In this document: in pieces, positions 54,176-56,293 of the stretch | Numbering within the stretch: the stretch's first letter is position 1 | How the letters are laid out: each line of letters begins with the position of its first letter | Assembly (NCBI GenBank): GCA_024642115.1 | Contig: JAHEBU010000001.1 | Coordinates: 372,001-436,000, forward strand | Origin: Marivivens sp. | GTDB lineage: Bacteria; Pseudomonadota; Alphaproteobacteria; Rhodobacterales; Rhodobacteraceae | Length of the DNA stretch: 64,000 nucleotides | Direction: 5' to 3' | The notes under the pieces: model-generated | Databases searched by the model: none | The model's input: the letters and a program-made list of their open reading frames with translations, nothing else | What the model was told of the DNA's origin: nothing | Made by a program: the position numbers and the translations under genes

Positions 54176-54684
54176 CCGACGCCCTGCACACCGCCCGCCT
54201 GATACTGCGCCCGCCCGTCCCCGGCGACTGGGACGCGTTCCATGACTTCATGATGTCGGACCGGTCCACGGCCTTTGGCAGTCACAAGGACCTTGCCAAG
54301 GCCTTTCGCAGCTTTGCCGCCGAACTCGGTCACTGGCAGATCTTCGGCTACGGCATGTGGGCGGTCACGGTGCGCGGCGATGACACCTGCATCGGCCTGA
54401 TCGGCCCGTGGACCCCGCCCGACTGGCCCGAGACAGAAATCGGCTGGATGATCCTGTCGGCGGACATCGAAGGCACCGGCATCGCCACCGAAGCCGCCCG
54501 CGCCAGCATCAAACACGCCTATGACGTTCTGGGCTGGCAAACTGCCGTCAGCTATATCGCCCCTGGCAATGCACGGTCGATCCGGCTGGCCGAAAAACTC
54601 GGCGCGGTGCTTGACCCTGACGCGCCGCGACCCGCAGCAGACACGCTGGTTTACCGGCACCCCAAACCAAAGGATATCGCATGA
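54172..54684 (+). CDS. GNAT family N-acetyltransferase (second of three)
   Basis: A 170-residue GNAT paralogous to both neighbours. Shared motifs are TARLILRPPVPGDWDAFHDF (near the N-terminus), ETEIGWMILSADIEGTGIAT and PGNARSIRLAEKLGAVLD. It belongs to the RimJ/RimL-type Acetyltransf_3 group that modifies protein N-termini or small molecules. It overlaps both the upstream and downstream GNAT genes by 4 bases (ATGA), so the three are probably translated in a fixed ratio. The substrate is unknown. Confidence 0.88.
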   Translation: MTDALHTARLILRPPVPGDWDAFHDFMMSDRSTAFGSHKDLAKAFRSFAAELGHWQIFGYGMWAVTVRGDDTCIGLIGPWTPPDWPETEIGWMILSADIEGTGIATEAARASIKHAYDVLGWQTAVSYIAPGNARSIRLAEKLGAVLDPDAPRPAADTLVYRHPKPKDIA

Positions 54685-55256
54685 CAACGCTTCCCTGGGA
54701 ATCCCGCCCCGTTGGGCAGGCCGCCGTCGCCGTCGAACGGATCGGGCAATCGCTGCCCAAGATTTCGACTGACCGCACCACCATGCGCGGCCCCTACATC
54801 GAGGATTTCGATATTTACGCCGACATCGTCATGTCCGACCGGGGGCAATTCGTGTCCGGCCAGCGCACCCGCGAAGGGGCCTGGGACGATTTCCTGCAAC
54901 TGACGGCCAGCTGGATCCTGCGCGGCGCGGGCCTGTGGACGGTCGAACATCAGGACGACAAGCATGTGTTGGGCTTTGTCCTGCTTGGCCACGAAACCGG
55001 CGACCCGGAACCCGAACTCAGCTTTTTCTTCACCGCCGAGGCCGAAGGGCACGGCTATGCGTTTGAGGCGGCGCGATCCGCCCGCAACAACGCCTGGAAC
55101 GCGCTGAGCTGGGAGTCGCTGGTAAGCTACATCGAACCCGGCAATACGAGGGCCATCGCGCTGGTCCAAAAGCTGGGGGCGTTTCACGACGCCGCCGCCG
55201 ATCACGACGGCACACAGGCGTGGCGCCACCCCCGCCCCGAGGTGCCGGAACTATGA
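54681..55256 (+). CDS. GNAT family N-acetyltransferase (third of three)
   Basis: A 191-residue GNAT paralogue with PYIEDFDIYADIVMSDRGQF, EPELSFFFTAEAEGHGYAFE and PGNTRAIALVQKLGA. The acetyl-CoA loop differs from its neighbours (AEAEGHGYAFE versus IEGTGIATE), suggesting a different substrate or reduced activity. The ATG overlaps the upstream stop, and the stop overlaps the ATG of a 34-codon ORF (ATGA at 55253-55256). Confidence 0.87.
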   Translation: MTTLPWESRPVGQAAVAVERIGQSLPKISTDRTTMRGPYIEDFDIYADIVMSDRGQFVSGQRTREGAWDDFLQLTASWILRGAGLWTVEHQDDKHVLGFVLLGHETGDPEPELSFFFTAEAEGHGYAFEAARSARNNAWNALSWESLVSYIEPGNTRAIALVQKLGAFHDAAADHDGTQAWRHPRPEVPEL

Positions 55257-55357
55257 ACGGCGTCCTAACCCACAGCGCGGTGTGTCTGTACAGCCGGTGT
55301 ACAGCCGGTGTACGGCCAGTGTACGGCCTGTGTACCCTGTTTTGGGGGGGCAAATGA
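55253..55357 (+). CDS. 34-codon coupling ORF containing the tandem repeats
   Basis: A short ORF that begins inside the last codons of the third GNAT (ATGA) and ends with ATGA at the chorismate mutase start. It would give a 34-residue peptide with four Cys/Trp-type residues. The DNA is dominated by 11-bp tandem repeats, and 11 is not a multiple of 3, so the peptide itself is not repetitive. Perfect overlap at both ends suggests it serves to couple translation or acts as a leader; whether the peptide is functional is unknown. Confidence 0.45.
   Translation: MNGVLTHSAVCLYSRCTAGVRPVYGLCTLFWGGK
55287..55340 (+). repeat. Tandem 11-bp repeats (TGTACRGCCNG)
   Basis: Four units start at 55287, 55298, 55309 and 55320, with a partial fifth (TGTACCCTGT) at 55331. 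The first two are identical (TGTACAGCCGG) and the next two differ by a few bases. The 11-bp period is close to one DNA helical turn, as in iterated protein-binding sites. They end 13 bases before the chorismate mutase ATG. Confidence 0.9.
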
Positions 55358-55650
55358 CCGACGCCACGACCCGCGCCGCCGACCTTCTCAAAGGTCACCG
55401 CGACAGCATCGACCGGCTGGACGCCATTCTGGTGTTCACCCTGGCCGAGCGGTTCAAGCACACCCAATCCGTGGGTCGGCTCAAGGCCGAACACGATCTT
55501 CCCCCGTCCGATCCGGTCCGCGAACAGGCCCAGATCGCGCGGCTGACCGACCTTGCGACCCAGGCTGATCTTGATCCTGAATTCGCCAAGAAATTCCTGA
55601 ACTTCATCATTCAGGAAGTCATCAAGCACCACGAGAAACATCAATCTTAG
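55354..55650 (+). CDS. Chorismate mutase (AroQ class)
   Basis: A 98-residue all-helical AroQ-type mutase that converts chorismate to prephenate for Phe/Tyr synthesis. Conserved helices include [20 protein letters not shown] (7-26), [20 protein letters not shown] (30-49, with the active-site Arg/Lys) and a C-terminal [26 protein letters not shown] tract acts as ribosome site just after the repeats. Its TAG stop is the start of a repeat palindrome. Located between GNATs and rpsP, as in other Rhodobacterales. Confidence 0.9.
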
Positions 55651-55667
55651 GGTGGGTAAAACCCACC
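55651..55667. repeat. Palindromic repeat copy 6 (GGTGGGTAAAACCCACC)
   Basis: A 17-base copy with a one-base shorter centre. The preceding TAG is the chorismate mutase stop codon, as also happens at the GntR gene. Confidence 0.85.
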
Positions 55668-55696
55668 AAACCTGCCATTTCAAAGGAGAAAACCAA

Positions 55697-56092
55697 ATGG
55701 CCATGAAAATCCGGCTCGCCCGCGGCGGTTCCAAAAAGCGCCCGCACTATGCCATCGTTGCCGCCGACAGCCGCATGCCCCGCGACGGCCGCTTCATTGA
55801 AAAGCTGGGGACCTATGCCCCCATGCTGCCCAAGGACAGCGAAGAGCGCGTCAAGATGGATGTCGAGCGCATCAAGCATTGGATGGGTCTGGGCGCCCAG
55901 CCGACCGACCGCGTGCAGCGCATGCTCGAAGCGGCTGGCGTGGTCGAGAAAAAGACCCGCGCCAACCTGAAAAAGGGCGAGCCCGGCAAGGCCGCCCAGA
56001 AGCGCGTCGAAGAAAAAGCCGCCAAGGCCGCCAAATCGGCTGAAGCCGCCGCCGCTCCGGCTGCTCCGGCAGAAGAAGCCGCAGCGGAATAA
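55697..56092 (+). CDS. rpsP: 30S ribosomal protein S16
   Basis: A 131-residue S16. The core (1-85: [40 protein letters not shown] and [20 protein letters not shown]) is followed by an Ala/Lys/Glu-rich tail of about 45 residues, as in other Alphaproteobacteria. AAAGGAGAA precedes the ATG at 55697. First of rpsP-(47-aa protein)-rimM-(sulfotransferase-like)-trmD-rplS-rpmE. A hairpin follows and may reduce downstream expression. Confidence 0.97.
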
Positions 56093-56149: not shown

Positions 56150-56293
56150 ATGTTCTGGCTTTTGCGCAAACTGCTGATTCCGGCTGCTGCCTTTGTCTGC
56201 GGCATGTGGGTGCAATCGTCCCTGTCCCAGACCGCCTGCCTTGACGCCGGCGGGATCTGGGCGTCAGGGGTATGTCAGGGGGCGCGACCATGA
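56150..56293 (+). CDS. 47-residue hypothetical membrane-anchored protein
   Basis: A small ORF between rpsP and rimM. It starts [20 protein letters not shown] and has one hydrophobic segment (about 8-25), then a short Cys-containing tail ([17 protein letters not shown]). Cys30 and Cys42 could form a disulfide if the tail is periplasmic. Its stop overlaps the rimM ATG (ATGA), which supports translation. GGTGACCC is a weak ribosome site. No family is recognised. Confidence 0.6.

Follow-up and report, generated by a model that had tools for sequence, protein, structure and literature searches.

Arrays of short direct repeats with 11-bp units are dispersed over the genome of Marivivens sp., and arrays in other genera stand at some of the same loci and in the same orientation, keeping the 11-bp pitch even where the unit itself differs. 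One of them lies between a GNAT acetyltransferase gene and the chorismate mutase (CM) gene, inside a small open reading frame (ORF) that bridges the two. We put the chance at about even that the arrays are sites of a cooperative, head-to-tail DNA-binding protein that has a chromosome-level role or recognizes an old element, and that changes together with its sites, with the ORF coupling GNAT and CM.

Results

An array of 11-bp units at the GNAT/CM junction

The window, by which we mean the whole 64,000-nucleotide stretch that was analyzed, contains a row of genes running in one direction: three GNAT genes, all of which match Pfam Acetyltransf_3, then the genes for CM, ribosomal protein S16 and RimM (Pfam). 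The features at the junction are listed below in window coordinates.

54681..55256, + strand: third GNAT acetyltransferase gene (Pfam Acetyltransf_3, 2.5e-19; sequence)
55253..55357, + strand: 34-codon ORF bridging GNAT to CM, with ATGA overlaps at both ends (sequence)
55287..55330, + strand: four 11-bp units, TGTACAGCCGG, TGTACAGCCGG, TGTACGGCCAG and TGTACGGCCTG, at 55287-55297, 55298-55308, 55309-55319 and 55320-55330 (sequence, Tandem Repeats Finder)
55331..55335, + strand: fifth TGTAC core, a partial unit (sequence, Tandem Repeats Finder)
55340..55343, + strand: T-tract, 15 bases past the end of the fourth core (sequence)
55344..55350, + strand: G-run just 5' of CM, a possible ribosome-binding site (sequence)
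55354..55650, + strand: chorismate mutase, CM_2, 98 amino acids (Pfam CM_2, 3.7e-20)
55697..56092, + strand: ribosomal protein S16 gene, next downstream (Pfam Ribosomal_S16, 3.9e-27)

The initial annotation had described four copies of TGTACRGCCNG and a partial fifth at this place, and these were borne out by the sequence and by Tandem Repeats Finder, which reports an array at 55287-55335 with a period of 11, 4.5 copies, 92% matches and a score of 70, rank 2 among its 34 rows for the window. Exact matches to TGTACRGCCNG occur in the window at these four places only, and a repeat as good as this one, whatever the period between 5 and 25, arose in 0 of 200 mononucleotide shuffles of the 150 bp upstream of CM. 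The 34-codon ORF with its double overlap was likewise found in the sequence as annotated, at 55253-55357; its ATG overlaps the TGA of the third GNAT gene (55254-55256) and its own TGA (55355-55357) overlaps the CM ATG at 55354. A second small ORF of this bridging kind, 47 amino acids long and with no Pfam match, lies in the same gene row at 56150-56293, and its stop overlaps the start of RimM.

RNA structure at the CM locus gave a z of -0.01, the fold being no better than those of shuffles, and no Rfam family scored above its cut-off there. A freshwater-2 match of 22.9 bits, against a cut-off of 49.9, lies outside the array at 55602-55699, from the end of CM into the stretch before the S16 gene. 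Neither a terminator nor a promoter was found within the array, and no sigma-70-like promoter was found at the locus.

Arrays of the same kind are dispersed over the genome

When the window's own genome was searched with (TGTAC-N6)x3, 30 exact matches were obtained, merging to 17 places, against 0 for the reversed pattern, and with two mismatches allowed the three-core pattern gave 66 matches against 3 for the reversed control. A core-plus-spacer pattern with up to three mismatches matched 47 times (reversed control, 10), and both TGTAC cores were kept in 45 of the 47, a constancy that is inflated because the arrays were located via their cores. These 45 are the matches to arrays, and the other 2 lie outside arrays. 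Within the 45, all variation falls in the spacers and leaves the cores untouched, which is the pattern expected of a binding site. The cores of end units do vary (TGCAC, TGTAT, TGCAT).

In this genome the TGTAC core is followed by R and S, GTC stands 5' of the first listed core in 16 of the 17 arrays, and pairs of arrays are alike across about 45-60 bp; arrays within a genome also partly agree in the order of their units, a feature that copying would likewise produce. A dispersed array is about 55 bp long and consists of three to five head-to-tail 11-bp units with a near-constant core and looser spacers. One own-genome array of three units, at L233:4000-4027, lies inside a called ORF of 405 amino acids. 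Among the copies of genome G202, some pairs (from L286, L288, L291, L292, L293 and L300) share 50-90 bp more to the left of the array, so that these may perhaps be parts of a composite element.

Spread among relatives

The exact array of three TGTAC cores was absent from all of 40 relatives, 24 of them of the same family. Across 394 family genomes it was present in 10, the window's own included and one of the ten with a single match, and the reversed control gave 6 matches in 5 genomes. The looser TGYRCx4 was detected in 41 of the 394, some of which show one match only or a plain repeat (control, 4 matches in 3 genomes), and TGYACRSx3 in 47 of 292 (control, 0). Carriers of TGTACx4 named among the matches listed are Paracoccus albicereus, Yoonia litorea, Palleronia aestuarii and a Planktomarina MAG. 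The presence of arrays is patchy within genera, and spacers differ by genome (AGGGGG in G202, GGGTTG in G272). G202 and G370 have more arrays than were used: 20 loci were taken from each, along with 5 from G272 and 3 from G147.

TGTAC arrays from other phyla and from viral contigs were set aside as evidence, since a TGTAC query recovers that word by construction; many of them are plain tandem repeats. Several have features of their own. Loci of Bacteroidales MAGs (L057, L062, L066, L067 and others) have 11-bp TGTAC units, inverted about a short center, with species-specific spacers (e.g., TGTACAGTATA, TGTACAATATA), and occur on many contigs of one MAG. Arrays with variable spacers were seen in Lactobacillus-related and viral contigs (L089:1710-1759, L114:2346-2395, L219:10568-10617), directly beside genes that we take to resemble ArpU-type phage regulators, and a Shewanella contig (L129:2157-2292) carries about a dozen TGTAC units, mostly at an 11-bp pitch, with very different spacers.

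Loci, orientation and pitch are kept while the unit changes

The flanks of 110 arrays, two of 1.3 kb each, were compared by translated search. Both flanks were homologous, with the array in the same orientation, in 25 cross-genus pairs, and flipped in none; these pairs represent about 10 loci and are thus not independent, and the 3 that involve G013 carry no orientation information, since the G013 unit is palindromic. A further 18 pairs matched on one side only, and in 2 of these the array was flipped relative to the shared gene. The shared loci include the following, with gene names beyond the Pfam-confirmed ones (gltD, ArfB, leuD and lpd-like) read from protein starts.

GNAT-CM locus: arrays in G000, G370, G065 and G013
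gltD 3' end: arrays in G000, G202, G265 and G370
ArfB locus: arrays in G000, G065, G202 and G265
leuD junction: arrays in G000 and G065
lpd-like gene: arrays in G065, G265 and Yoonia

The region upstream of CM was compared in 60 genomes, a non-random set made up of the 30 best-scoring of 60 that matched and 30 picked, many of them as array carriers. With periods of 5-25 and mononucleotide shuffles, a repeat with shuffle P < 0.02 was found in 12 of the 60, and the best period was 11 in 11 of them and 23 in one (G418); the repeat of G520 (P 0.015) is weak. As array-bearing at CM we count the 11 period-11 genomes and G010 (P 0.025), and the G370 array upstream of CM (L276) falls outside the 60 loci. 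No array was found upstream of CM in the other 48 of the 60, among them the array-rich G202 and G265. The annotation had proposed comparing the GNAT-CM region in other Rhodobacterales, and in this set 12 of 60 genomes had arrays there. Its treatment of the repeats as an element belonging to CM was not supported, given these 48 genomes and the dispersal of arrays, also between convergent genes.

Units upstream of CM include, across genomes, TGTACAGCCGG, TGTGCATNNNN, CATACGCTTTC, CATATGCAAAA, TGTGTACGGGC, ACACTTGCCCG and TGCACGSRTTG, and the 11-bp pitch stays as the unit changes (among TGTACAGCCGG, TGTGCATNNNN, CATACGCTTTC and ACACTTGCCCG). In the set of 91 arrays, which have 3-5 units each, the pitch was set by the search; the period tests upstream of CM found it independently. 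Of the initial suggestion that the repeats are a protein-binding or an RNA element, the protein-binding half was strengthened, by the period of 11 in 11 of 12 and the intact cores in 45 matches, and the RNA half was not, given the z of -0.01 and the absence of an Rfam family.

Changed units are also dispersed in their own genomes. G065 has CATACG[CG]TTTC-like units at 14 places on its 3.33-Mb contig (control, 0), four CATATG places were found in G013, and G051, which has neither CATATG nor CATACG places, has about 16 places with ACACTTGCCCG-like units at up to three mismatches (control, 1), a search that gave chance matches in 5 of the other 6 genomes. At gltD, where 29 of 30 loci were testable, a period of 11 with P at most 0.02 was seen in 4 of the 29 and a period of 6 in one (G042); G065, the nearest genome by gltD (89%), has no array there.

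Placement relative to genes and chromosomes

To place the arrays, 93 loci were processed, 2 of which (L259, L262) failed the array script, leaving 91 arrays; 3 were not flanked by a gene call on both sides, 5 lay within called ORFs, and the other 83 were classed by gap. Gene calls were made from GC by codon position with our own script, which makes the start codons and the gap classes approximations. The arrays are mostly intergenic, with only 5 of 88 inside called ORFs. The 83 gaps were tandem in 53 cases, convergent in 20 and divergent in 10, compared with 186, 48 and 72 among other gaps of at least 60 bp in the same loci. Arrays were depleted from divergent gaps (p 0.023, one of two tests, uncorrected) and not clearly enriched in convergent ones (p 0.10). 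Of the arrays in tandem gaps, 26 had the orientation of the genes and 27 the opposite one.

A TTTT within 40 bases past the last core followed 32 of 90 arrays, 26 of them at an offset of 13-17, compared with 10 of 90 on the upstream side and 8 of 89 for a control far downstream; in the window's own genome it followed only 2 of 17. Of the 90 arrays, 17 had GTTTT downstream and 3 had it upstream; for AAAAC the counts were 9 downstream and 10 upstream. The arrays showed no clear inverted ends.

The 25 largest clusters of neighboring genes did not reveal a binding protein; recurring genes came from shared housekeeping loci and common families, and the regulator-like clusters were one LacI-like and one LysR-like, named by eye, in three genomes each. 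No shared transposase was seen by eye in the same 25. A tyrosine-recombinase motif, searched for as a motif and not with a profile, was present near 0 of 16 own-genome array loci (about 8 kb each) and near 1 of 58 viral arrays, compared with 5 of 290 random positions, and on these counts we rejected integrase arm-type sites as a candidate.

On three chromosomes the arrays were clustered (p 0.013, 0.019 and 0.021), following no one rule; part of these placement counts used exact matches only and left out one on a small contig, two odd G051 matches were dropped ahead of the gap test, and dnaA and gyrB were recognized by eye or by short motif. G065 has an array gap from 652 kb to 2.03 Mb (p 0.013), roughly opposite dnaA, which prompted the idea of a Noc-like exclusion from the terminus. 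The pattern is not general, and two genomes do not fit it: the origin inferred from skew falls inside the array gap of G013, and in G424 few arrays (1 of 10, p 0.18) lie on the contig that carries dnaA and gyrB.

The bridging ORF is a property of the junction

Of 48 genomes without an array, 28 have an overlap of exactly 4 or 8 bases between the stop of the upstream gene and the start of CM; in the 12 with an array the two are 37-136 bases apart. In 10 of those 12 a mini-ORF begins within the upstream stop and runs to CM position +4 (eight genomes) or +8 (two genomes). As for the remaining two, the ORF of G023, whose CM start is uncertain, continues out of frame past that start as far as +247, and in G051 no mini-ORF begins within the upstream stop. 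When the spacers were shuffled without change of length, 3.3 of 10 would stay open to that point against the actual 10 of 10, a comparison that measures openness only loosely, since the ten ORFs were chosen for being open. The peptides look unrelated between genera. Among 16 genomes that have a spacer but no array, 8 carry the same kind of bridging ORF, which makes the coupling ORF a property of the junction. The annotation's suggestion of a coupling ORF is supported by the mini-ORFs of array-bearing genomes, although ORFs of this kind are found without arrays as well. The array respects the coupling property of the GNAT/CM junction, and the CM locus offers a natural case of a coupling junction kept bridged across an inserted array.

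Discussion

Each array most likely hosts one cooperative assembly of a putative DNA-binding protein, which would place one protomer per helical turn, head-to-tail, on one face of the DNA, in the manner described for BldC and RdfS. Its role is most likely not promoter control. Since neither promoters nor orientation show a pattern, we favor, with modest confidence, a chromosome-level role (structure, anchoring or insulation) over gene control; recognition of an old dispersed element would serve as well. The protein's specificity appears to shift in step with the sites of a genome, and related genera would then keep loci, orientation and the 11-bp pitch and yet could differ in unit. At the CM locus, translation of the short ORF that spans the array would keep GNAT and CM coupled.

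The main rival is a mobile or selfish short repeat of the MITE or REP kind, a module of about 55 bp copied by an enzyme between intergenic sites, inherited at fixed loci, homogenized by gene conversion and without a host function. This possibility is a serious one, and we hold it to be on balance unlikely. It would account for copies alike over about 45-60 bp within a genome, for a partly conserved order of units, for arrays that are mostly intergenic, in any orientation and patchy between close species, for the T-tract found 3' of some copies and for the additional sequence on the left of some G202 copies. It accounts less readily for cores that outlast spacers in the window's genome, for loci and orientation that are the same across genera even with a different unit, and for unlike units that keep the pitch; nor was there a tyrosine-recombinase motif at the 16 own-genome loci or, by eye, a transposase in the largest neighbor clusters.

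Explanations that tie the arrays to gene expression fare worse. That they are operators of one transcription factor, for example an OmpR/PhoB-type response regulator, we consider improbable: the pitch and direct-repeat layout fit that class and some arrays lie in divergent gaps (e.g., L238, L246), but convergent gaps make up 20 of the 83 classed, the divergent class is depleted and orientation is random (on approximate gene calls), no sigma-70-like promoter was found at the CM locus, and 48 of 60 genomes have no array upstream of CM. A leader or attenuator in which the translated ORF and the repeats sense something and control CM is very improbable. The ORF does bridge GNAT and CM in most array-bearing genomes, but the same kind of arrays stand at many unrelated genes, bridging ORFs occur without arrays, the peptides are unlike between genera, and the RNA folds no better than shuffles. 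A chance minisatellite produced by replication slippage is hardly credible; the units at the CM site are tandem, but one core recurs at 17 places, with no exact match for the reversed control, and other genera share loci and orientation.

Extending the reading of the arrays as sites of a cooperative binding protein, we tentatively propose, at somewhat below an even chance, that the Rhodobacteraceae have an undescribed chromosome-wide system in which a protein that oligomerizes coevolves with its arrays (at 17 places in this genome and 14 in G065), the word being replaced in each lineage while loci, orientation and pitch are kept. If so, each lineage would have its own dialect of arrays. Sites that keep their place, direction and pitch and change sequence together genome-wide are unusual, and such a system would be a natural experiment in the coevolution of a bacterial DNA-binding protein with its many sites; otherwise the arrays may represent a new kind of dispersed repeat.

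Comparison with known systems

In the open-licence literature we found analogues only and no described arrays of this form, which is not proof of their absence. OmpR/PhoB-type response regulators bind promoter operators made of direct repeats at about one helical turn, a similar spacing, whereas the arrays here are depleted from divergent gaps. Binding sites of Noc, like the arrays, are scattered around the chromosome; they are not known to form tandem arrays, and an exclusion from the terminus is inconsistent here, G065 fitting it and G013 and G424 not. REP and MITE elements are likewise dispersed short intergenic copies, palindromic or with inverted ends, and no such ends were clearly seen on the arrays. 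The stop/start overlap of the ATGA coupling junction is present at the CM locus, where two such overlaps surround the mini-ORF.

BldC and RdfS are described as winged-HTH proteins that form head-to-tail oligomers cooperatively along DNA (PMC5859096, PMC11963761). BldC assembles on direct repeats of varying number, of the AATT type and at promoters, and the discussion of that paper adds that PhoP and PmrA bind direct repeats (PMC5859096); RdfS acts at att sites and promoters (PMC11963761). The arrays resemble such sites in being direct repeats about one turn apart and of variable number, and differ from them in most likely not being tied to promoters; no protein of either kind was found here.

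The nearest described thing is the TAACTGA direct repeat, a 7-bp unit shared across phyla, in Beggiatoaceae, Cyanobacteria and Bacteroidetes, which in one genome lies mostly just upstream of start codons (PMC4679880). Both kinds form many short, mostly intergenic direct-repeat arrays per genome and are patchy across species (PMC4679880). In contrast to that heptamer, the arrays described here have an 11-bp unit, TGTACRGCCNG in the window, that changes between genomes, stand in any orientation, and occupy loci shared across genera.
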